From Plicaturopsis crispa FD-325 SS-3 (taxonomy: Eukaryota; Basidiomycota; Agaricomycetes; Amylocorticiales; Amylocorticiaceae), in NCBI GenBank assembly GCA_000827205.1, contig KN832561.1, forward strand, positions 1,490,072-1,554,071: a stretch of 64,000 nucleotides of DNA, in the 5' to 3' direction. The notes beneath the pieces are model-generated. The model had not been told where the DNA came from, ran no database searches, and worked only from the letters and a program-made list of their open reading frames with translations. Each line of letters begins with the position of its first letter. Position 1 is the first letter of the stretch. This document shows, one piece after another, positions 5,901 to 63,488 of this stretch. Position numbers and translations under genes: made by a program.

Positions 5901-7694
5901 GCCGAAGACGGCCATGTCGGTCACAGACGTAGACGGGGGAAATGTAGGCGGAAGCTGCAACAAAGTACGATCTCCACTAAGTCGCGAAATGACACGAACA
6001 CGACCTATTCATTTAGACCGAGTGAGCAATAAATACTGGCACGAGCAATGATGCAGACGAACCTTTCGTCATGGCGTAAGCAACCCACTGCGTGACCCCG
6101 ATAGTTGTACCCGGTAGGAATACAGAATCCTGCTTAACCAGGGCGATAGCGGTGGCTTTTACAGAGTCGAGCGGAGACTGGATCTCAAGTAGGTCCTGGG
6201 ATACATCGAATACAACTGTCTGTGCTTGATAACTTGGGGGCAAACGCGTTAGCAAAAGCCTAATGATGATACGCAGGAACACTTACGTCGGGCTACCCTG
6301 GTTCTTACCCTTCCCGCTTTTGCGTCCTTCTGACCCTTTCCAGTTCCCGCCTCGCGGGCCCGGCGAACTATCTTTATCTCTCCTTGTCGGTACGAGCTGG
6401 CCAACCGGCGACTCGCGTTGCGCAGGGCCAGCCCTGTGCTGTACCTGTGTTTTCGGGGGCGATCCACGCGGCGACGCCGCTCTGGGCGGCTTCGGGGGAA
6501 GAGGTGGCGGCGGCGCGGGCGCAGCCCTATCGCCAACCGGTCCAGGAATCAATTCATCGTACGGGTCATAAGCGGGCTGGGGCTGCTCCTGGGGCGGCCT
6601 CGTGAGCTGCTCCATCAGGTTCTCGACAGACCGGTGCTTGGGGTTCGGGAGCGGGTTCGGGTTGGGATCGGTGGGCGCCGACACGGTCGACCACGAGTCC
6701 TCATTTCCGCTCGATACGCTCGGCACGGGCTTCTTCTTCACGGTGGTAGAGCTAGGGAACGCATCGAAGGGAGAGATGAAATCAAACATCGACTTGCGCG
6801 TCGGAGATGGGGGTTGCTGCTGCTGCTGCTGCTGGACCTTGGGAGACGGTTGTTGCGGAGGGGGCCTTGGGGCTTCTCGCGGAGAGCCGTACGACCCTTC
6901 ACGCGAATGGTAGTCTTGAACGTCGTGTTGCGGTGATGATCCGGCGGCAGGGGGTACCGGCTCAGTGTAATTCGATCTGGGAGCGTTACTAGAGGATGTG
7001 ATTAGCAAAAGGAAGTGCCCAGATGGGAGGGCGGAAAGTGGGATCAGGAGGGAAATCGCAAGTGGGCAGTTTTGATAGAACACGAGTACGCCATGCACGC
7101 GCCTGCAATGTGCAGCATGGCGGCAGAAACGTAGTGTAACACGAGCATGCTTGCAAAAATTCATGCCATGCCAATATCGCCCAGAAAGACATTGCAATGT
7201 TTTCTACGGTTAAATGACACTCACCCTGACATCAACTGTTCCAATAGATATTTTCCTTGAGACTCATTGGTATTTGGACCCGTAGGCGAGTGACTAGCTC
7301 TATTAACGCTCGACGAGATAGGCGGCGTCGGAATTTGTTGAATCGGAGCAGCCCTATTTGCAGGTGGGCTAGAAACCGTTCCAAGCAGATTCAACAGTGC
7401 GCTCTGTCTCTCCGTAGCCGTGTTATTTGGGGCAGATATGGACGAAGAAGGCGCATCCTCGGACTGGAATGACACAGGCGTGCCCGGGTCAGAGTGAATG
7501 AACGCGCTGCTGCCTCCTGGGCCTGTGAGGTGCGGCAAAGACGAGGGTGCACTCAAATTGTGAAACAACGACTCGAGCTGGTTGGGCGACGAGTTGTGCG
7601 AATGCACCTGCGGATAATTTGGATTGTTGCGCGGCTGCGGGGGTGTAGCGCCTCGCGAAAAGAGCTGCTCGTGGGTGTCGGTCGTGTGGTCCAT
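2977..7694 (-). CDS. EDC4: EDC4/Ge-1/Varicose-like mRNA decapping scaffold
   Basis: This is a large scaffold of the cytoplasmic decapping complex (P-bodies), linking Dcp2/Dcp1 and Xrn1-type decay. From the N-terminus it shows a low-complexity Ser/Pro/Asn region; a Pro-rich region with a polyglutamine tract (complement of 6815-6836) and the segment MFDFISPFDAF; a WD40 region, readable as LAIASICEDSTLALWNV and GIVVGRKNGTIFQVLS (about 6280-4900); a charged linker; and a helical domain with IQQSLPIEIEKLLLRPDI and LLDRHVKEAVHKSILP (about 4300-3950). A proline-rich linker then leads to a final helical domain (ELLSRSNPEVVMPLNGPSPL ... VQETLSRK, stop 2977). The domain order matches animal and plant Ge-1. 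Roughly nine introns give a protein of about 1,300 residues. The start at 7694 is the first ATG in frame. Confidence 0.88.
6815..6836 (-). repeat. CAG/CTG trinucleotide tract coding polyglutamine
   Basis: About seven CTG triplets on the plus strand read as Gln codons in EDC4. The tract sits in a proline-rich disordered stretch, as expected for a P-body scaffold. Confidence 0.85.
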
Positions 7695-9288
7695 GAGGAA
7701 AAGCTGATAAGAAAGATACAGAGATTACACTGCGAGATACCTAAGCAGAAACGGTGCGGAGGGGGATGAAGGTGAAGAGCAAGAGGCGAATGCGAAACTG
7801 CAATGCGCCGCAAGCGTTCAACCTCGCTGAAGCCTCGAGGCCTTTTGTCGTCGCGTGGCTTTACCAGAACGGGAGTCATCTAATCTCTTGTTTTGCTTCC
7901 ATGTTTGCTCTTATCCTCCAACGGCGAAATAGCAGGATGTGCAGGAGGTTTGAGGACGGGGCATGCAAAGAATGAACAGTGCTCGCACGTTGTTATCGCA
8001 AGGATTTATTCATTAAAACATTGTGTGGCAAGGTGAACATTCGGCGTCATGAGATGCTCAAGTACACTGGCTGCAATACACCCAAGTTGCATATGAACAT
8101 AATGGATTGTATTGGCGGAAGTATTCATACGAAGTTGCCAGCCTTCATTGGTTCAAGTATAGACGGTCCGAGGATATTGCTTCGAGTGCGACAGAACCTT
8201 CCTTGCGACGGCCTCGCGGGAGTATAAAGGGACCGCTGGGAGGAGAGAAGGGATAGACCAAGTTGCACTTTGAGAGAGATACCACACGACTCACGCGTAT
8301 GTGTACGTACATGCAGCGAGCCCCAGTAGACACTGGGCCGTCGATGCTCGCGAAGCCTTTCGAGGGTCCAAAGGAGGCCTTATCTAGTGGCAGCAGGTCC
8401 ACGCCGCGATTCTCGTAAAGAGGTACGATCCGATGCGCTGAGAAAGGAATGAGACGACCGTCGTCCGGATTTCGTCTTCAAGGCCACGTAAAAGTGGCCG
8501 TGCTATCCTCCGGCGCCACGCTTGCAAACCCATCGGTGAACCTCGAAACGTGTGCAAAACGTGCGTGAGTCGAAGCGCAGATTGAGGGCCAACGGTGAAT
8601 CCGCACTCCACGGTCGGATCCACACAAAGCATGCACGTCTATGTGCATACGTATGATGTGTGGTGGAAAGCTGGGCCCTGTGGTCGAACGTGTCACCTGA
8701 ACACTTGCTAGAAGGTAGACAGAGTAGACGAGCGCTCGCCGAGAATATTAACCTCCAGCCATTGCGGTCTAGCGGTGTATGCATGCCCATATTTTCGCTG
8801 ACCCTGTGAGGGCCACGAGCGCCACAAGATCTACACATCGGTGCTACGGCGCAAAGATACGGTCAGAGCAGCGTGGAAAGTGCGGTTGAAAGACACGAAA
8901 ACGTACCGCAACTGTCACAATTCGACTTGAAAGCAGGTCGCATGGCCACTGAGTAGCAGGCAGCTGATTTGATAGTCGCGTTAGGCATGTACCATTGTCA
9001 GCTGCTACACAGGTAACGTATGCGTCAGTGCCGCTGGCTCTCCAAAAAATAACGCATACTAGGCGCTGCTCCGAAGGGAAGGCATTTTTGAAATCGCTCA
9101 ACGAATTTGATTGGATGAAAGATAGACGCGATGGAGACTCGAGTGAACGAGGGCGCAAGGGGCTAAAAACAAACAAGGACAAAGACCGATTAGATGCGTA
9201 TAAGAACAGCGCCTTTCGAGGGGGGGCGCCTTCAGTTTCCACTATCCACTCACCAACACCCACTCAAATAACCAACACCGTATACGAA
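7695..9288. other. Gene-poor stretch upstream of EDC4 and the metallothionein
   Basis: About 1.6 kb without a supported gene. The left end is the likely EDC4 promoter and the right end the metallothionein promoter. On the minus strand around 8345-8430 a short segment reads HRIVPLYENRGVDLLPLDKA and continues FGPSKGFASIDGP, which looks more like coding than chance. I could not build a start, an exon chain or a family match around it. It may be a decayed gene. Confidence 0.35.
9199..9204 (+). promoter_or_regulatory. Possible TATA box of the metallothionein gene
   Basis: TATAAG lies 85 nt before the metallothionein ATG. That spacing fits a strongly inducible fungal gene. I found no clear copper-regulator (ACE1-type) site by eye. 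Confidence 0.4.
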
Positions 9289-9514
9289 ATGTTCACCGTA
9301 GGTCCCATCGTTTCGTTGCAGGGAGCTACAGGACACTGACGGTGTTTCGACGCGCAGACCGTCCAGACCCCCGTTGACAACGCCAACTGCGGCTCGTCGT
9401 CTTGCTCCTGCGGCGCTAGGTACGTCAATCCGACACCATTCGACTGAAATCTGGCTTACAGTATTTCTTTCGCGCTGTAGCTGCCAGTGCAAGCCTGGAG
9501 AGTGCAAGTGCTAA
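9289..9514 (+). CDS. Metallothionein, 34 residues, three tiny exons
   Basis: Metallothioneins bind Cu, Zn or Cd through clustered cysteines in the cytosol. Exons are 9289-9297, 9358-9419 and 9481-9514, joined across GTAGGT..GCGCAG and GTACGT..CTGTAG introns. The product starts MFTTVQTPVDNANCGSSSCS and ends CGASCQCKPGECKC. It has seven cysteines in the CxxxxCxC...CxCxxxxCxC spacing of small fungal copper metallothioneins. The Agaricomycete family is known for short proteins starting MF and ending in KPGxCKC. Exon 1 encodes only three residues, so ordinary ORF searches miss the gene. Frame and stop are preserved exactly across both introns, which makes chance unlikely. Confidence 0.88.
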
Positions 9515-10329
9515 GCGCATTACTGCCTCTTCCTTGCCGCCTTCCTCGGGCGAGCATCGCCATAAATGTACGATAATGGAGCTGTAGGATGATGAAGTCA
9601 TTGTGCCGTGTACCTTGTGCGTCGAAGATTGTATGCAACCAAATTGCTTGGAGGAAAGTGTGACTTGGCCGACGCGTAGATCATGCAGTCTCCCGAGTGA
9701 AGCACTGGTGTGGAAATTAAGACGACACAATGGACGTCTCTTGCGTAGGTTCAAGGATGCACCTCGGCGTCGTAATCGTCGGTAACAAGTGAGGTCAAAT
9801 CAACCCTCAGAGAGCATGATCAACCTAGTGAGAGAGGTACACGGTTAGCGTCCAGCTTTTTAAGGAGAGGACCCAGTGCATACCTATATATGTACGCTAC
9901 ATATGTTGCGAGCGCACAACAACGAGCGATCGTGCGCAACAGAACCGCTGCTCGGTGAACCTGAGTATGCAAGCCGTGTGCTGTGTGTGGCATGAACCTG
10001 GCATGAACTCAGAACGGACGCGGCGAGAAAATGGTAACATATACATCACATGCTCTGCCATCTGCCAATAACTCGTCAATAAAACATATCATTATTACTT
10101 ACACTGACTTGCCCCTCAATCCTCGTCTTCAAATCTGAAAGGTCAAGGTCCCGAACTGTCGAATTTGCGTCATACACTGTATTGCGAGACTTGCTGGATA
10201 CAATCGACAGAGTGTCAGACAAATTTCGTCAAGGCCTGCCAAGCTTGATCAGCATGTGTAAGCTGTCCGGGAGCGTTAGCATTTTATATATTATTTGTAT
10301 TTATCTAACCTATATTTGGGAGTTTAACC
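9515..10329. other. Intergenic region between metallothionein and dioxygenase
   Basis: About 815 bp with only short overlapping frames of low-complexity or basic composition. I see no conserved protein, RNA gene or mobile element. It should contain the metallothionein 3' end and the dioxygenase promoter. Confidence 0.5.
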
Positions 10330-11545
10330 ATGCAACGACCTTTTCTCTCACCGCCATGTCGTTTGCTTATAATCGCAGTCCTTTCCGTCGCACTGGTCCC
10401 CACAATTTCAATCATTTACCGCCAATTGGTACCCGCTAGACTTGCACGCAGCATCATGTCGAACGCAACGCTACCAAAGACTCGAGCAGATTGGCTCAAA
10501 GCTCTCGATGAGCTCCCATCGACCCCAGACAAAATCCCCGCGTTCTTCTTTGGGCACGGGAGTCCTGCCCTGGCCTATCCTGGCAGAGGTATGCCAGGGA
10601 TGGAGTCAATGGGTCCGCAAGGTCCCCTTGGGACTTTCTTGCGCGACTTTGGGCCGAAGCTGTTGGAGAAGTACAAACCGAAGGGCATCGTAGTTTTCAG
10701 TGCACACTGGGAGTCCGATGGCGAGACGCTAGGTGCGTTCGTGTACCCTCCCACCTGCGCACGCTACTCACGCGCGCCTTAGTGTCCGACTATGGCGCCG
10801 AAAACCCGCTGCTCATGGATTACTACGGATTTCCCCCGGAGCTATACCGGCTCAAGTTTAAATCTCGGGGCGATTCTGCCCTTTCCAGCCGCGTGATGGA
10901 CCTGTACAAGCAAGCTGGCATACGCGTCCGCACGACCGACGCGTCGGAAAATCGAGGACGAGACGGACGAGGCTTCGCAGGGCCGGGATTTGACCATGGC
11001 GTATTCGTTCCGTTCCGAATCATGTTCGGGGAGGAATTCACGGATATACCCACCGTGCAAGTGTCTATCGATGGCAGTATGAGTCCTGCCAAGAACTGGG
11101 CGCTCGGAAAGGCCGTGGCTAAGCTGAGGTGCGTCTCGAAAACTTCGCGTTTCGCTGTCTTTAATGTATTCGCAGAGAGGAGGGCATATTGGTTCTCTCT
11201 GGCGGGCTCCTCGTCCACAATCTACGCGACTTTTCCGCCTTCAACGAGGAGACCGCCGATGCCATTTACAAGGAATTTGACCGGGCTATACTCGATGCCA
11301 TCACCATACCCGACGTACGCCGTTCACTTTATGATCATTGCTCGAGCTAACCTTTCTACCTGCACCAGGCCGAGGCCCGTCGGACGGCACTAGTCGCGCT
11401 CACCAAACATCGTGGTTTCAGGGCTGCACAACCACGGGAGGATCATTTCGTCCCTCTATATGTTGCAGCTGGTGCTGGCGAAGGCGGTTCCGTTAAAGTT
11501 GTCGAGGCGATATACGGAGCGCCCACCTTTGCCTTTGGACTGTAG
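10330..11545 (+). CDS. LigB-type extradiol ring-cleavage dioxygenase (4,5-DOPA dioxygenase-like)
   Basis: The family cleaves catechol-type rings with a divalent metal; plant and bacterial members act on L-DOPA. Metal-ligand histidines are visible in FFFGHGSPAL, VVFSAHWESDGE, GPGFDHGVFVPF and REDHFVPLYVAAGAG. The C-terminus AIYGAPTFAFGL also fits. Three introns (about 10732-10780, 11125-11175, 11315-11370) restore one frame of about 340 residues. The start at 10330 adds a hydrophobic N-terminal segment (LLIIAVLSVALVPTISIIYR) that looks like a membrane anchor. An in-frame ATG at 10456 (MSNATLPKTRADW) would give a soluble protein of normal family length. The true substrate is unknown. Confidence 0.88.
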
Positions 11546-12031: not shown

Positions 12032-13455
12032 TTACCGCTCTTCCTCGCTCCCACACCAGCCTGAGCAGCCCACCGCAGTGCGACGCGACTCCGAGGCCAT
12101 GCTCTCGGAAGGGCCCATCACGCCCCCGATGTCCCCCGCTATCAGCGAGGACGCCATCTACGTCGACGCGGAGAGGCGCTTCAGCGGGGCGGTCCCTGAG
12201 GCAGCGCAGGCGCAGACCGGCGAGGACAGGGTGCTGCAGTGGCGCGAGGACGAAGAGATGGCTACGGAGCACGCGTCTCCGTCCAAGGCACCGCTGCGGC
12301 TGCTCGAGGACGAACAGGTGCACGTGGAGCGGTCGGGACGGCTGAAGCTCACGGACTTTGAGGTTAAAGGCACGCTAGGTATGTCATCCTCTGTTTATGA
12401 CCACTCAGTCGATCTCTAACGGTAGGAGAAAAGGTACTGGCACATTTGGTCGTGTACTTCTAGTGCGCCTGCGCAGCGCAACGAGCCAACCGGTCTCTCA
12501 AAATTTCTTCGCCATGAAAGTCCTCCGCAAGACAGAGATCGTGCGGCTGCGCCAGGTCGAGCACGTAAATGCAGAACGGTACATCCTCTCGCGCGTACGG
12601 CACCCCTTCGTCGTGGACCTCTTTGCGACGTTCCAGGACAGCCTGAACATATACATGCTGCTCTCGTACGTCCCCGGCGGCGAGCTCTTCACGCATCTGC
12701 GTCGCGCCCAGCGCTTTACACCCGATGTCACGCGGTTCTATCTCGCGACGATCATCCTCGCGCTGAAGTACCTCCATTCGTTCAACATCATCTACCGCGA
12801 TCTCAAGCCCGAGAACCTGCTCCTCGACTCCCGCGGCTATCTCCGCCTCACGGACTTTGGATTTGCTAAAATCGTCGACGACCGTACCTGGACGCTGTGT
12901 GGTACCCCCGAATACCTTGCTCCCGAGATCATCCAGTCGGACGGACATGGGAAGGCCGCCGATTGGTGGGCTTGCGGGATATTGTGCTATGAGATGATGG
13001 TTGGCTACCCGCCATTCTTCGACGAAAACGCGTATGGCATCTACGAGAAAATATTGAGGGGCCATATCCATTGGCCTCGGGATATGGACCACCTTTCGCG
13101 GGATCTCATCCGGGCGTTCTTGAATCCCGACAGGAGTCGGCGGTTAGGAAATATGACGGGTGGTCCCCAGGATATTCTTGATCACCCGTGGTTCAAGGGC
13201 GTCGACTGGGATGCCCTTGAACGGTGTGAGATTAGGGTGAGTTTTTACTCTGAACGTGGAATGTCACGAATTATATCTGACACTGGACGATAGGCGCCTA
13301 TTATTCCGCACACTGCATCTTCAGGCGATACACGGCACTTCCTCCATCTTCCTCTGCCACCTGCAGGAGACATGCCTGGTCTGGTTATGGAAGAGCGTCC
13401 ACCGTCGCTCCATCAACGCTTTGATCCTGTGGCCTACCAATTCCTTGAATTCTAG
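12012..13455 (+). CDS. cAMP-dependent protein kinase (PKA) catalytic subunit, AGC kinase
   Basis: A Ser/Thr kinase of the PKA type. An N-terminal extension of about 120 Ser/Pro-rich residues leads into LKLTDFEVKGTLG. The first intron (12379-12433) must use the acceptor AAAAG so that the glycine loop reads GTLGTGTFGRV; the earlier GTAG would break the frame. Catalytic features are FAMKVLRK, YRDLKPEN, LTDFGFAK, activation loop TWTLCGTPEYLAPE and DWWACGILCYEM. A second intron precedes the tail APIIPHTASSGDTRH, which ends in FLEF, the FxxF hydrophobic tail seen in PKA. Related AGC kinases such as PRKX are the alternative. Basidiomycetes usually carry two PKA catalytic genes, and I cannot tell which this is. 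Confidence 0.92.
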
Positions 13456-13922: not shown

Positions 13923-15342
13923 ATGGCCCGCCGACGCAAAAACAGGACTCATCTGAAGGGGTCCAATCCATCTACAGCTCCAGGAAATGTTCCTGATGGC
14001 GTCCCCAAGTCCTTCATCATAAAACACGGCCATGTCGGTGCATCGCTGACCCAGCTCGTGCGCGACGTCCGGCGCGTTATGGAGCCCAACACCGCTGCCC
14101 GTTTAAAAGTGCGTCCACAGTCTTGCTCGCCCCTTGTGTACGCTAACGGAGCTGCAGGAACGCGCACGTAATAAATTAAAAGACTATCTGACGATGGCGC
14201 CGGCGCTGCAAGTGACCCATCTGCTCGCGTTTACATTGACCGACATCGCCCCGTCCCTGCGTATAGTACGCATACCGGCAGGACCGACGCTCAGCTTCCG
14301 CATCGAACGGTACAGTCTTGTGCGGGACGTCCTAGCTGCCTCCCGCCGCGCCAAAAGCGCTGGTATGGAGTACCTTTCGCCGCCCCTGGTTCGTCTTGCA
14401 AAACATATCGGATTTTTTTCCAGGCTAATTTCTTTACAGCTTGTACTCGCATCTTTCCCTCCCCCATCTCCGACTACACCCCCGCATCTACCGCTTCTCC
14501 AAAAGACATTCCAGACACTCTTCCCTCCCCTTTCGCCGCAAACATTGACACTTGCGTCCGCACGGCGCATCGTGCTGGTCGCATATAATGCTGAGCGCGA
14601 CACGATCGACTGGCGGCATTTTTTGATCAGCGTGAAGCCCTACGGTGTCTCGAGGCGGGTGCGACGAGTGCTGGAGGCTAAGAAGGCTAGCGCCAGTACG
14701 GCGCATCAGACGGGAATTTTGGACCTGGGGAATGAGAAGGATGTCGCAGATTTCGTGTTGCGGAGGCGGGGCTCACCGGGCCCGGACGGCGACGCGGGGT
14801 ACGAGAGTGCGTCGAGCGCGGCGAGTGCGGTGGACGACGGGGAAGCGGCGGTCTCGTTAGCGGACGACTATGTTGGGCGGGGCAACAGCAAGGGCCAGCG
14901 CCGTGCTGTGCGGCTGGATGAGATCGGCCCGCGGATGGAGCTGCGGTTAGTCAAAATTGTGGAGGGGGTACCTGGGAAGGAGGGCGGCGTCATCTACCAC
15001 CAGTTCGTGAAGAAGAGCAAGAAAGAGGTCAAGGAGCTAGATGCCGCTCATAAGGAGAGGGAGAGGATTCGGAAGGAGCGGAGAAAGGAGCAAGAAAGGA
15101 ATGTCGCCCGTAAGAAAGCAGAAGCAGGAAAGGGCGGAGATGATGAGGATGACGACGACGAGGAGATGGAGGACTTGGACGGGGATGAGGCAGAAGACGA
15201 CGAGGGGCACTGGGACGAAGAGGAGGAGATCAGTGAAGGCGAGGACAGCGAGGATGGCGCAGAGGAAAGTGAAGAAAGCGAAGAGGAGCCTGAGCAGGAC
15301 AAGCGGCCTGTGAAAAAGGTCAAATTCAGAGGGAAGGGGTAG
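13923..15342 (+). CDS. SSF1: SSF1/Peter Pan Brix-domain ribosome biogenesis factor
   Basis: This nucleolar factor is needed for 60S subunit maturation (Rpf2/Imp4/Brix family). The N-terminus MARRRKNRTHLKGSNPST leads into PKSFIIKHGHVGASLTQLVR, and the Brix domain follows (TLSFRIERYSLVRDV, EYLSPPL, LASARRIVLVAYN, HFLISVKPYGVSRRVRR). The domain closes with EIGPRMELRLVKIVEGV. The C-terminus is a Lys/Arg coiled coil and a long Glu/Asp tract (15130-15290). One intron at about 14107-14157 is clear. A second, 14389-14439, has a GTTCGT donor and is a multiple of three without stops; removing it joins SPPL to LVLASF as in relatives. Confidence 0.93.
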
Positions 15343-15475: not shown

Positions 15476-16191
15476 TCAAGATTGCTTTGTCTCGACTGCT
15501 GAGCCAAACCAATCATCCCACAAGCGCCCGACGCGCATGCGCACACCCTCCCAGTTATCCAGTGCGGGGCGTACATCGAGGAAAAACGAGAGGCCGTTGG
15601 TGCCCGGAATGCTGCGCCCCGTGTAAAAGTCGATAACATAGCGCACGCGCGTACCACAGCGGTCTACGACCCAGTCATGCCTGTCAAACGGCGGCGTGAA
15701 GCTGGAGGGAACATAGACGGCTGAGTATCATCGCATGGACTATGAGGCTCCGGAACGCACCCTAGAAGACTCTTCCATCGCGCCTTCGGACTCCTCTCTC
15801 CAGGCCGCCCTTTGAAGTTGACGAGGCGTACGCCGCCGCACGCATCGCCACCTCGCCCTCGCTCCCATTCAAGGACCTGTCGCCATGCGCGCTCATTCAC
15901 GGCGTTATGAATGGGCACGATGGTCTTCATATCTGCCGCCTCCGGATTGTGATTCTTGCGCTCCATAGCAGCAAAGAACTGTGCCTCGGACGGGTAGACC
16001 CATTTGTCGCCCTCTGGTTTCGGGATTGAAGAGGTTTCGCGCTCGGAGGAGAGGGTTGGTTTGGAGGACGTCGGCGCGGGGGGACTTTTGGACATGAAGG
16101 AACTCCATGTCGAGGATGAAGCAGCGCTGTGGTCAACCGGACATTTTTCGGCTGGCGGCGAATGGTCAACAGGACATTTTGAGGCGCTCAT
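15476..16191 (-). CDS. CYC3: Cytochrome c heme lyase (holocytochrome c synthase)
   Basis: The enzyme attaches heme to apocytochrome c in the mitochondrial intermembrane space. Two Cys-Pro heme-regulatory motifs lie at the N-terminus (KCPVDH, twice). Conserved blocks are WVYPSEAQFFAAMERK, VPIHNAVNERAWRQVLEWE, FKGRPGERSPKARWKSLLG, PFDRHDWVVDRCG, VRYVIDFYTG and LDVRPALDNWEGVRMR. One intron (about 15722-15760) joins KSLLG to the segment read as AVYVPSSFTPPFDRHDW. The length of about 225 residues is normal. The gene is divergent from TFB3, with 190 bp between starts. Fungi can have separate cyt c and cyt c1 lyases; the cyt c type is more likely but not certain. Confidence 0.92.
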
Positions 16192-32354: not shown

Positions 32355-35300
32355 TTAGAGATCTTCATCGTCCGATATGTGGATCTCGTCCGCGTTACCG
32401 GCAGCAGCAGCATCTGGGGCGGCAGCAGCGTCACCCTCCGGTGGCTCGAACCCGCTCCTCTCCTTCGCAGCAACGAACGCAGGCCCCTTGGTCCCGCTCG
32501 CCGCCTCCGCCGCAGCCATCGCATCCCGCTCGCCCTCCGCCTCTTCCTCCGCAGCCAGCTTCGCGCCCGACCGCGCCGCGATAGTCTGCGCCGCGAGGTA
32601 GCTCGCCTCGGTGTTGAACTGCGCCTGGACGCTGCGCTTGATGCGCAGCATCTCGCGGAACGTGTCCTCGGAGCCGGTCTCGATCTCGAAGCTGTTCCAC
32701 TCCGCCCAGAACGTGGGGTCGACGCGCGGGTCGCAGAACTGCGAGGCATGCGCGTAGATCGCGCGCGCACGGTCGATCTCGCCGAGTTTCCGCTCGAGCG
32801 CGGCGAAGCGGAGACACATTTCGGCGGTCTGGCGGTCTGGGAGCGACTCGAGGGCGCGCTCGTAGATGGGTCGTGTGGCGGGAAGGCCGTAGTTGGCTGT
32901 TGCTTTCGCGATGTAGATAGAGAACATCTATATGGACGGGCAGTATTATTATTAGCGGTGAACGACTTTCTTCGTTGTGCGGAAGCGTACCTCGAACTTG
33001 TCTGTGTCTGCTACGACTTGTGTGGCCCGGTCGTACACCGACATGGCGCGTTTTGCGAGGCCGTAGTCTTCTTCTAGTTGGGCGTACATGAGGAACAACG
33101 GTTTACACGACTTGGGTGGGCATTTCTCCAGAGCTTGCTCAAACAGGTCTCGAGCCCGCTCCAATTTCGAGCCGCCCTGTAAAAGAATTAGCGAGAGGGA
33201 AACAATGAGACCACACCATCACTCACATATCGCTTGACGAATTTGGATAGGTATATGTTCCAAATTTCGAACGATACAGGGAAAGTGAACAGTTCGACGC
33301 CACGTTCATACACCTTGAAGCTGTCCTCGAAGTACTTGTTTTCCTCGAGGAACAAGGCGTAATTTATGATGATTTGAGCATTTGCGATCCGCAGCTCCAA
33401 GATCTTGTCGTACACGCTTTTCGTGGTCTCGACTGTGCCAATAGATTCCTCGATATCGACATAGAACGACCACAACTTGATTGACTTGAAGAGGCGTGCT
33501 TGAGCGGAGAGTGACTGCATGCAATTGGTGAACAATTGAAAAATAAGATAGGACGAGGACATACGTGGTCGTGGTAGTTGATTTTGGTGTTCTTCGGGAT
33601 AGCCGTCGCACGTTGCATGACGCGAATGGCCTCGTCGTAGTTCCTAGAACATCCTGTTAGCAAGCCGCTCAGTGCTAAGGGAAAAAAATTACGCACTCTT
33701 GGCGGATCTCCATCTCAGACCATTCACACCACACCTCAGCCAGATCTTCCACTGCCTTGAAGTTCACCTTCGTGCCCTTCTCAAGGATCTTGCGTGCACT
33801 GTCAAGGTCGGGTTCGGCCTGTCCACTAGTCCCACCCTCCTCGTAGAACTTCGCAAAATTCACGTATAACCGGTGGAAATTTGCCGTCGCTTTCCGTGGA
33901 TGTATCGTTTCGAGGGCTTTGGTGTAAGTTTCCGCCACCTGGGTGAAACAATGAGGCCCACAATGCATGCCGTGCATGAATAACGTACCTTCTCATCGTC
34001 ATCTCCCCATAATGCGACCCGCTTTTCCCATTCTTGGACATCGTTAGTATTCCGCCGAATCAACACGTCGTTGACCAGGAATGGTCTCCGGTCCATGAGG
34101 TCCTCGAACTCCTTCATGCGCACATCCAATTCCCGTTCCGTCTCCTTCACATCTTCTTCGTCTTCATCCTCGTCTGGCTCCGCCAAGCTTTCCATCATAG
34201 CACTGATTAACGACTCGCTGAACTCGGAGTACGCGTCAAATATCTGCGTGAAATCCCGAATGGTCAAGACGCTGCTGATGCCGGCCTCAAATGTTGCTTT
34301 TGCGCGCTCGAACTCGCCCCGTTTGATCCAGTATGTCGCGAGACCGGCCCACAACCTGCCCGCCTGGTCTTTGTATACTGACAGGCCATCCCTCTGGACG
34401 ATACGTTCGATGTTGAGTTTCCGCGGACTCCTCGGGTCCTCATCTTCGTCGTAGGGCGCAGCAGCTGTTTTGCCGTCTGAAGAGACAGGCACGGCAGGTC
34501 CCGCTATCCGTATGAGCTGGCCATTACGAGAGGCAGGCTCTGGGACGGTTTTCGACGCTTCAGCTTCCTCAGCTTCGGCCTCATCGTTTGCCTTGTGGGA
34601 CTCTACCGTTTCCTCCACGTCCAATCCCACCTCCTCTGAGAATCGTTCGACCACGTCTAGCCAGTCCCCGAGTAGTTGGTACGGACTCTTTCCCTCCGGA
34701 CTGGTGTATTCGCCTCGTGCGGCTTTCCGGGCCAGGCCGAGTAATAGCTTCGCAGCCTCCAACGGTCGAGGAGCAGGGTTTTCTGGCGCTAACAGTAGCG
34801 CTGTGTAATGTTCCGTGACACTGGGGTCAACAGCGAGGTACCTGCGATAGACCGAAACGGTTGTCGCGCCGCCACGAGTTTCCGCCCACAACAGGTAGCG
34901 CACCCATATGCGAGAATGGAGAGATGGAGGTAGTGTCCGTAGGGAACGATCGAAGGTGCGGCGCGCGTGCGTATACGATATGACCGGCGGACAAGACGGG
35001 TGGAAAAATATTGACAGGTACATGAGCCATAGGCGTGGTAGCTGGAAATAATTGAGCAAAAACGCGTTAATAGAGACATGGGCGACGTACGTTTGGCAAC
35101 CACATAAGAGCCCTCTCAAACGTAGCAATAAGCGATTTCCACTCCTCCCAGCCTACAACGCCGTCCAGACCTCCCTCCCATAGCTCCAAGTCCTCCTTCT
35201 CCTCCTCAAGCGCGTCTTTCATTGCCGGAAACTTCTTCTTGCCGCCAGCCTTTTTCTTCACGACAAGTTTGCCCAGCACAAACGACATCCGCATATGAAG

Positions 35301-54535: not shown

Positions 54536-55785
54536 TTACCAGGAATGATGTCCACCGCTAACAATAATGCTAAAGAGAAATACTGTCAGTGGAGGCGCCA
54601 GCGATCACAAGGGAAAAGACACTCACTCGCTACCCGTACAGAAACTAGAAGCATCAGAAGCAAGCCACACAGCAACGCCACGCATCTCGTCCGAGCGGCC
54701 TATGCGGCCCATCGGATTCATCTCTGACCACTTGGCAAGTAGGTCAGGATTGGTATCGAGATACTTGGCCGTCATGCTGTAATGCAAAAAAGGCAAGAAA
54801 ATGAGCGCTGGCCGGTATAGAAAAGGATATCGAGACGTACTTGGTGCAGATATGACCGGGGGAGATGGTGTTGACGCGGATGTTCTTGGTCCCGAGCTCG
54901 CAAGCCATGCTCCGTCCCATTTGAAGGACGGCAGACTTGCTGGCATTGTAGGAAACCCAAGCGTGACCCTAAGTAGGTGAGCTAAAGTCAGCATAGGTAA
55001 AATAAGATCAACGATAAGATACCAACCCTGTTCGTGATTGTCCCGCTCATCGAGGCGATGAGGACAATGCTCCCGTGTGTGCCGAACCGCTCCATCTGCC
55101 TTCCAGCAGCTTGCGCGGTGTACAGGGCGCCATTAGCGTTCACCTCCATAACCTTCTCAAACTGCGCTGCCGGGTAGGTCAGGCAGTCTGTATGCGCCTT
55201 CAGGATGCCAGCGGCCGCGATGCACACGTCCATGCGCTGCTCCTTGTCGGCAATACCCTCCACGAGTGCCCACAGCCCCTGCTGGTCCGTGACGTCGATA
55301 CTGCGGTATTCGAGACGCCGCGGAACACCTTCCTCTACGTCGAAGCGACTGACATACTCCGCCGTCCGAAGGAAATCCTCGGAAGGTTCCTTCGGCAGGT
55401 CGAGGCAGTACACAGCACGCGCACCCGCTTCGCTCAGCGCAAGCGCCATCTCGAGACCAAGGCCCCCGTTGCCACCGGAGACGATGGCGACACGATCGTT
55501 AAGGGCAAATTCCTCAAAGATCTTGGGACGCGGTGCAAGAGTAGAACCGGATGCAAACTGCGTCGCGGCAGCAACACCCAGAGGCGCGAGGGGCGACTGG
55601 GGCTGGTTGGGGCCGGCGACGCTGTGATGTGAAGCAGTCTGGACGGGGATGGTAGGGGCGACCGTAGTCGTAGTCGAAAGCTGACGGGCATGGAGGCCGG
55701 AATGCAAAGCAGAGACGGCGGGGCGAATGCCGCGATTCCGGAGGAGAGGGTTGGTGGAGGAGATAGCGGTACGGAGGGACAACAT
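54536..55785 (-). CDS. Short-chain dehydrogenase/reductase, probably mitochondrial
   Basis: An NAD(P)-dependent classical SDR. An N-terminal extension of about 90 residues rich in Ser, Arg and Ala (MLSLRTAISSTNPLLRNRGI) looks like a mitochondrial presequence. The Rossmann site is RVAIVSGGNGGLGLEMALAL, followed by CIAAAGILKAHTD, VMEVNANGALYTAQAAGRQM and SIVLIASMSGTITNR. After an intron come the catalytic Tyr/Lys in SYNASKSAVLQMGRSMACEL and IRVNTISPGHICT. The end is WLASDASSFCTGSDIIVSGG, then HHSW and stop. Three introns. Relatives are sorbose reductase-like or mannitol dehydrogenase-like SDRs, usually without the presequence. The substrate is unknown. Confidence 0.9.
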
Positions 55786-60665: not shown

Positions 60666-63488
60666 ATGGCGCCTACCGTCACCAGTGCTAAGCAATGGGC
60701 AAAGCGCGTTGTCCACTACCCTGAGGAACCCATACCCGTCGTGTCCTCGAAAACATGGGTAGAGAAGATATTTCATGGTGTAGGAAGGAAGGTCAGTCAA
60801 ATTCACTCCCTCTTGCTTCTGAACGTGCACTGAAAACCGGTGTGCAGACCGCGAATTATTTTCTAGCTCTCTTTCCTATTCTCACGTGGCTGCCGCGGTA
60901 TAGTAAGTACTTTGCTTCGTCTAGGAAGAACATCGCAGCTCAGAACAATACACAGATCTGGGATGGTTAACGGGAGACGTCATTGCCGGGCTAACAGTCG
61001 GCATGGTTCTTGTCCCACAGGGGATGTCGTATGCAACTGTATGTGTTCTACTTGTCATAATCAGCACCTTTATTTACACCCTACAGATTGCTACACTCCC
61101 CGTTCAATATGGTCTGTATTCGTCATTCGTCGGTGTCCTCATCTACTGCGTGAGTCTTTCCAGATCCTCCAGCTACATGCTTGACTCATCCGTAAATTCA
61201 GTTCTTCGCAACATCTAAGGATGTGTCCATCGGACCCGTCGCCGTGATGTCCCTTACCGTGTCGCACGTCATTGCCAACGTCTCCGCTGCACATCCCAAT
61301 CAGTGGGAAGGTCACGAGATTGCTACCACACTCGCATTTGTGTGTGGATTCATCGTCCTTGGAATTGGCTTGTTACGACTCGGATGGATTGTCGAATTCA
61401 TCCCCGCACCAGCGGTTAGCGGCTTCATGACCGGATCCGCAATCAACATTGTGTCTGGGCAAGTCCCCGGGCTGATGGGCATCACTGGCTTCGAGTATGT
61501 ATTCAAATGTCTGCCAACTGCTTTCATTCTGACCATTCACAGTACGAAGGGCTCGACGTACCGTGTGATCATCAATACGCTGAAGGGCCTCCCCGGGACG
61601 AAGATGGACGCAGCATTCGGCCTCACAGGGCTCGTCAGCCTCTACATCATTCGTATAGCCTGCGACTTCTTCACGCGCCGATACCCACGTCGTGCTCGCA
61701 TATTTTTCTTCATATCCGTGCTTCGCAACGCCTTTGTGATCATTGTACTCACAATCGCAGCGTGGCTCTATACAAGACATAGAAAGAGCAAATCAGGTAA
61801 ATACCCGATCAAGATCTTGCAGGTTTGTGACACCCTTTTCTACGGTGCTGCTTGATATTGAATGTCTTTGCATAGACGGTTCCCAGCGGTTTCCAACACG
61901 TCGGGTCCCCACACATCGATCCTGCACTCGTCAGTGCGCTTGGATCAGAGATCCCGATCGCGACTATCATCCTGCTTCTCGAGCATATTGCCATCTCGAA
62001 ATGTCCGTAATCTTCTATTGTCGATGGCCAATGACTTACTCTTGATTATAGCATTCGGACGCGTCAATAATTACAAGATTAACCCGAACCAGGAACTCAT
62101 TGCCATCGGCGTCACCAACACCGTTGGGACTGTATTCGGCGCATACCCGGCTACAGGTTCATTCTCTCGCTCAGCGCTCAAGTCCAAAGTGCGTATCTGA
62201 ACACACTATTGATTTGAAGTACCGGCAATAACAGCTATACCATAGTCCGGAGTACGCACACCAGCAGCAGGAATTATCACTGCCATCGTCGTGGTCGTAG
62301 CGCTCTATGGTCTGACACCCGCTTTCTTCTGGATCCCCACCGCCGGTCTCTCTGCCATCATCATCCACGCGGTCGCCGACCTCGTCGCGAAGCCCGCGCA
62401 GGTCTATGCCTTCTGGCGCGTCGCCCCGCTCGAGTTCATCATCTGGCTCGCCGCCGTGCTCGTCACGGTCTTCTCCACGATCGAGAACGGTATTTACACA
62501 TCGATCGCAGCTTCAGCTGCGCTGCTCCTCATCCGGATCGCCCACCCTCGCGGGTATTTCCTCGGCAAAGTTAGCCTGAGGAACGCGAGCGACGACAACG
62601 CGCCGACGAGGGAGGTATTCGTGCCGCTGAAGCCCGACGGTGTAACGGACCCTCGTGTGACTGTGACCCCACCGTCGCCCGGCGTTGTTGTATACCGTTT
62701 CGAGGAGAGCTATCTCTACCCGAACACGTCTATCATCAACGATGTCCTCGTCGACCATGTTAAAACGAAATTCAGGCGTGGCAGGGACATGACGTTTGTC
62801 AAGGCATCTGACCGGCCATGGAATGATCCTGGCCCGCGATATGGTGGCGCCGTCGAGGAGCAGGCCGAAAATGCACTGAAGCCGGAGATCCACGCCATCG
62901 TGCTCGATTTCTCAGCAGCGTATGTGCAACTCATTAATTATTAGCAATAGACAGTGTCGCTGACCACGCCCCACAGATCACACATCGACACGACAGCTGT
63001 TCAGTCCCTAATTGACACACGAAACGAAGTCGACCGTTGGGCAGACCGTCCGGTGGAGGTCAGTCCCTTCCTGCTTCTGTACATTCCCTCTCCGTCCTGA
63101 CAGTAGGGTGCAGTTCCACTTCGCGACGATACTGTCTCCTTGGATTCGTCGTGCACTTATCGCAGGCGGCTTCGGCACCGGTGCCCCCGGTGCAAACTAC
63201 CCTCGAGAAATTGCAGCCGTTGTCCCATATCGCGGCGGCACCCGCGAAACGACCGACTATGACCGTGCCGACGACCAGGAGGCGCAATTGAAGGATCGCT
63301 CCCGCTCATCGTCCTCTGGAAAGAGCGCGGGCGACGAGAATGTACCAATATACGGAGATGATACTCCGTTCTTCCATTTCGACCTCACCGCGGCCGTAGC
63401 GGCGGCGGAGGCAGGCCTTGCGGCGCGTTCGCGTCCGCCCCCGTCTTTGGAGGAGAGGGACTTGAAGCATCGGGAGGATGAGCCATAG
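60666..63488 (+). CDS. SUL1: Sulfate permease, SulP/SLC26 family with STAS domain
   Basis: A plasma-membrane sulfate/proton symporter. The N-terminus MAPTVTSAKQWAKRVVHYPE leads into LALFPILTWLPRY and the SulP signature DVIAGLTVGMVLVPQGMSYA, followed by LPVQYGLYSSFVGVLIY. Later membrane blocks include SKDVSIGPVAVMSLTVSHV, FIVLGIGLLRLGWIVEFIP, APAVSGFMTGSAINIVSGQV, GAYPATGSFSRSALKSK and PTAGLSAIIIHAVADLVAKP. The STAS domain begins near 62870 (IHAIVLDFSAASHIDTTAVQ, SLIDTRNEVDRWADRPVE). The tail is cytosolic and acidic. About eight introns; about 750 residues. Yeast SUL1/SUL2 are duplicates, so the symbol marks family only. Sulfur starvation control would be expected, but no site was verified. 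Confidence 0.93.

Follow-up and report, generated by a model that had tools for sequence, protein, structure and literature searches.

HeptaCys metallothioneins of Agaricomycetes are the closest described counterparts of the gene reported here. According to PMC12508003 (2025, Agaricus crocodilinus), the hallmark of the group is the conserved C-terminal motif C-x4-C-x-C-x2,3-C-x-C-x4-C-x-C, and the peptides are divided into short forms, which have at most 35 residues, and long ones with at most 59. Table 1 of that paper contains 17 peptides, 9 of which have the length of 32-35 residues: AcMT2 from A. crocodilinus, PiMT1 from Paxillus involutus, AsMT2 from Amanita strobiliformis, LbMT1, PaMT1, ShMT1/2 and CcMT1/2. 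As counted from the same table, the short members protected yeast against Cd (9 of 9), Cu (9 of 9) and Zn (3 of 7 tested), and their mycelial induction is recorded for Cd in four and for Cu in six of the seven tested. The AcMT2 gene is described there as consisting of three exons, with introns measuring about 50 bp. In AcMT1, the duplicated segment runs from within exon 2 through the intron that follows to the first base of exon 3. A paper on Tremella mesenterica states that metallothioneins are often mis-annotated owing to their short exons and Cys repetition (PMC4755600).

Gene structure and predicted product

The window, that is, the whole analyzed stretch of DNA, is 64 kb long and comes from Plicaturopsis crispa. 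We consider it highly probable that positions 9289-9514 (plus strand) form a functional nuclear gene encoding a 34-residue cytosolic metallothionein, the host being probably an Agaricomycete fungus. The gene consists of three exons: exon 1 at 9289-9297 (9 nt, codons M F T), exon 2 at 9358-9419 (62 nt), and exon 3 at 9481-9514 (34 nt, including the stop codon). Both introns are of the GT-AG type. Intron 1 (9298-9357, 60 nt, GTAGGT...GCGCAG) is in phase 0 and contains a branch-like CTGAC with its A located 18 nt upstream of the acceptor at 9357. Intron 2 (9420-9480, 61 nt, GTACGT...CTGTAG) is in phase 2, and the A of its branch-like CTTAC lies 22 nt upstream of the acceptor at 9480.

The joined exons comprise 105 nt with the stop codon, and translation of this predicted splice product yields MFTTVQTPVDNANCGSSSCSCGASCQCKPGECKC followed by a stop, 34 residues in total. 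Thus the three exon sizes and the 34-residue, seven-Cys product proposed in the initial annotation were reproduced by translation, as was the statement that the introns together exceed the exons (121 nt vs 105 nt). The cysteines occupy positions 14, 19 and 21, encoded by exon 2, and 25, 27, 32 and 34, encoded by exon 3. Their spacing is C-x4-C-x-C-x3-C-x-C-x4-C-x-C, with six of the seven forming C-x-C pairs.

Splicing is needed for this product, since retention of intron 1 leads to a stop after 16 residues, retention of intron 2 leads to a stop after 32 residues with only three Cys, and the use of acceptors 9461 or 9487 instead of 9480 removes the later half of the cysteines. Candidate models were enumerated from all ATGs at 8700-9420 using GTRNGY donors, YAG acceptors and at most three introns of 40-120 nt. 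Four models end at the 9514 stop, each having two introns and seven Cys; no model with a third intron or additional Cys was found among them.

Comparison with known metallothioneins

The C-terminal spacing of the 34-residue peptide agrees with the family motif as printed in PMC12508003. The likeness to the short heptaCys metallothioneins extends to the position of the motif, which ends the protein, and to the length (34 vs 32-35 residues), the comparison covering motif, length and gene structure. Products of 34 or 31 residues lie within the limit of 35 residues, while those of 92 or 89 residues, obtained with an upstream start codon, exceed it. Like the AcMT2 gene described there, the predicted gene is split into three exons by short introns (60 and 61 nt vs approximately 50 bp). 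The first base of exon 3, included in the duplicated unit of AcMT1, here completes a codon split by the phase 2 intron; this similarity to the published description hints that the position of intron 2 may be common to both genes.

The long forms covered by the same source (AcMT1, HcMT1/2, HmMT1-3, LbMT2a/b) carry the same C-terminal motif, with C-x5-C between the first two Cys in AcMT1. However, they reach 49-59 residues via internal duplication, whereas none of the four models contains an added Cys segment. Taken as metallothionein, the product is thus backed by the motif, length and exon number published for the family (PMC12508003) and by the shuffle tests given below. The initial annotation had likened its spacing to that of small fungal Cu-metallothioneins. 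The metallothionein part of this label is supported, but a restriction to Cu is too narrow, given that all nine short members in the table of PMC12508003 shield yeast from Cd as well as from Cu.

The spacing is not the classic one of Neurospora. The Neurospora crassa Cu-metallothionein (PDB ID 1T2Y) is likewise a very short peptide with seven Cys and shares the middle block C-x-C-x3-C-x-C. At the same time, its complete spacing, C-x-C-x5-C-x-C-x3-C-x-C-x2-C over 25 residues, differs from that of the 34-residue peptide in the outer parts. We therefore rejected the assignment to the Neurospora type (Family 8): the 1T2Y spacing is not matched, and phmmer produced no match between the peptide and PDB sequences up to E = 10. 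No metallothionein family was assigned to the peptide by Pfam, where the single match (IFP_35_N, E = 0.11) is below the cut-off and irrelevant, and NCBIfam yielded no match. Six fragments of the peptide gave no match in a full-text literature search.

The full heptaCys motif was absent, as was to be expected, from all 26 loci (204,626 bases) taken from collections without fungal genomes, namely 16 stretches of prokaryote genomes and 10 of IMG/VR, that had been chosen by a degenerate pattern of the end of the last exon. The same pattern picked up an 87-aa ORF on a Candidatus Peregrinibacteria contig (L013:3258-3521), in which two hydrophobic stretches, recognized by eye, are followed by the Cys-rich tail CCCGCCSDKCCGDNCKCEDGKCKC. 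Its product may be a membrane protein whose tail binds metal.

Alternative acceptor and start codon

Two features of the locus had been overlooked in the initial annotation. The first is another acceptor of intron 1 at 9366 (CAG at 9364-9366), which leaves the reading frame intact, loses none of the seven Cys and shortens the product to 31 residues. The family assignment would then be correct, with 9366 used alone or in a mixture with the 34-residue form. We regard this as unlikely, although frame and Cys array are preserved: the first YAG following the branch-like CTGAC is that at 9357, and 31 residues fall outside the range of 32-35 observed for the nine short members tabulated in PMC12508003, while 34 residues fall inside it. 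For these two reasons the acceptor at 9357 is preferred.

The second feature is the frame of exon 1, which is open from a stop at 8965 through 9297 and contains an ATG at 9115. Starting there, the gene would encode 92 residues, or 89 with acceptor 9366, carrying the metallothionein domain at the C-terminus. In our own judgement, a three-exon model of 92 residues is also easier for a gene predictor than one of 34 residues. Nevertheless, this reading is very improbable. The score of the codons at 9115-9288 is no different from that of random sequence lacking stops (51% of such stretches score as high), and among 104 overlapping 58-codon stretches from ORFs with Pfam matches only one scores as low. 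Their third-position GC content is 0.48, compared to 0.60-0.74 in the ORFs with Pfam matches. A stop-free run of 123 codons on the plus strand arose in 149 of 500 shuffles of the region 7701-10329, and the TATA-like site at 9199-9204 would fall inside the coding segment. Moreover, the forms described in PMC12508003 are either short (up to 35 residues) or extended by additional Cys (up to 59 residues), whereas the upstream start adds no Cys. The upstream frame matched HSF_DNA-bind (E = 0.072) below the Pfam cut-off, which was treated as noise; no family passed the cut-off for this frame. As the 58 upstream codons look non-coding, the start at 9289 is preferred.

One gene might also yield two products, either 34 and 31 residues by alternative use of acceptors 9357 and 9366, or 34 and 92 residues, the latter with a charged N-terminus. 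We consider such a dual output quite improbable; if true, it would mean that the size or location of the peptide is regulated. The single 34-residue product remains the preferred reading and is the one considered below.

Codon usage and intron length

Codon log-odds, trained on 1370 codons from ORFs with Pfam matches, did not favor the coding sequence, as 78% of random stop-free stretches scored as high. This poor score may be due to the rarity of Cys in the training genes, but it lends the frame no support. In a post hoc count made after that test had failed, 29 of the 34 codons had G or C at the third position (p = 2.8e-5, binomial test against a local GC content of 0.508), and after exclusion of Cys and Met the proportion was 21 of 26 (p = 0.0016). 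Each of the seven Cys is encoded by TGC.

Intron-like matches of 45-69 nt are overrepresented in the window (67 observed on both strands vs 27.0 expected from shuffles). In the consecutive five-nucleotide bins of this range, 13, 17, 16, 13 and 8 matches were observed vs 6.8, 5.7, 5.1, 4.5 and 4.9 expected, while the bin of 40-44 nt is below expectation (4 vs 7.2). The predicted introns of 60 and 61 nt both belong to the range of excess. A second, smaller excess was seen at 95-104 nt (17 vs 8.5 expected in the whole window).

Significance of the cysteine pattern

Both strands of the window were searched for the motif C-x4-C-x-C-x2,3-C-x-C-x4-C-x-C, allowing for zero or one intron of 40-120 nt. 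The motif occurs once, in the gene at 9289-9514, and in none of 1000 dinucleotide shuffles of the window, these counts coming from a scan that was not blind, as the spacing was already known from the peptide and the literature. The search revealed no further metallothionein of this pattern on either strand of the 64-kb window. Hence unannotated genomic DNA can be searched successfully for the family motif, provided that a short intron within it is permitted.

A test independent of spacing considered ATG-to-stop peptides of 25-60 aa with at least seven Cys and at least 20% Cys, assembled with one or two consensus-like introns. The only ATG in the window that satisfied these settings was that at 9289 (with two acceptor choices), and none of 40 shuffles was positive. 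When unspliced peptides were also permitted under the same splice rules, 26 of 1000 shuffles became positive. Under looser splice rules with 0-2 introns, three ATGs were retained in the window (6776 and 9289 on the plus strand, 2933 on the minus strand), the shuffles giving on average 0.53 ATGs and at most five (100 shuffles). Comparison of the 26 positives with zero in the motif test, both out of 1000 shuffles, shows that the exact spacing is strong evidence and that Cys-richness alone is weak.

The spliced frame could, finally, be an accident of searching so long a sequence for Cys-rich segments, with nothing expressed; this is extremely improbable, since the Cys-rich models arising in shuffles when no spacing is demanded, the indifferent codon log-odds and the lack of homologue matches in Pfam, NCBIfam and PDB are countered by the absence of the exact seven-Cys spacing from all motif-test shuffles, by the excess of G and C at third codon positions, and by the agreement of length, exon number and intron size with the family as published in PMC12508003.

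The ATG at 6776 obtained with the loose rules starts a short peptide, six consecutive residues of which are Cys, and lies opposite a 304-aa ORF on the minus strand. This Cys stretch may be only a codon repeat of the opposite strand.

Upstream region

A possible TATA box, TATAAG, is located at 9199-9204 on the plus strand (−90 to −85 from the ATG at 9289). We scanned 1 kb upstream of the gene for seven promoter motifs, among them MRE (TGCRCNC), ACE1/Cuf1-like and TATA-like sites. None of the seven exceeded chance: one TATA-like site was observed vs 0.82 expected, two MREs vs 1.95, and one ACE1/Cuf1-like site vs 0.86. The initial annotation had placed a TATA box 85 nt upstream and taken it as a sign of strong induction. 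The position of TATAAG stands, but the conclusion about induction does not follow from motifs at the chance level. As no upstream motif is in excess, the promoter says nothing for or against induction by metals.

Probable function and annotation

The locus very probably represents a metallothionein gene of the short heptaCys type, ordinary in kind, from a mushroom-type fungus. We infer its metal binding, cytosolic location and protective role from published relatives. By analogy with these, the pre-mRNA would shed two short introns to give the 34-residue product, whose seven Cys thiolates would bind Cu(I) and Cd(II) as a cluster, so that excess metal is kept from doing harm. The known group of mushroom metal-binding peptides would thus gain one further probable member. 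The relevance would be chiefly to the annotation of metal tolerance in P. crispa, and no new question is raised.

It is plausible that the gene is absent from automatic annotation; that short exons lead to mis-annotated metallothionein genes has been published before (PMC4755600). A gene predictor might also report the 92-aa protein instead of missing the gene.

Genomic surroundings

Pfam was applied to 19 of the 100 ORFs of at least 120 aa in the window and to one sub-piece. The gene is flanked on one side by a minus-strand ORF with its 5' end at 7694 and on the other by a plus-strand ORF at 10330-10779, and a further minus-strand ORF (8847-9263) lies immediately upstream; none of the three was assigned to a Pfam family. 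Pfam matches identify a LigB-type dioxygenase ORF (10782-11390, plus strand), a Brix-domain ORF (14134-15339), and pieces of a cytochrome heme lyase (15667-16191, minus strand), SYF1 (33863-35128, minus strand), a short-chain dehydrogenase (54991-55785, minus strand) and a sulfate permease (62291-62941, plus strand). For the kinase ORF at 12397-13290, the best PDB matches are catalytic subunits of cAMP-dependent protein kinase (PKA), as judged from the best 60 of 2641 matches. The presence of SYF1 and cytochrome heme lyase points to a eukaryotic nuclear genome. Together with the PKA-like kinase and the excess of intron-like matches of 45-69 nt, they are compatible with a filamentous fungus.
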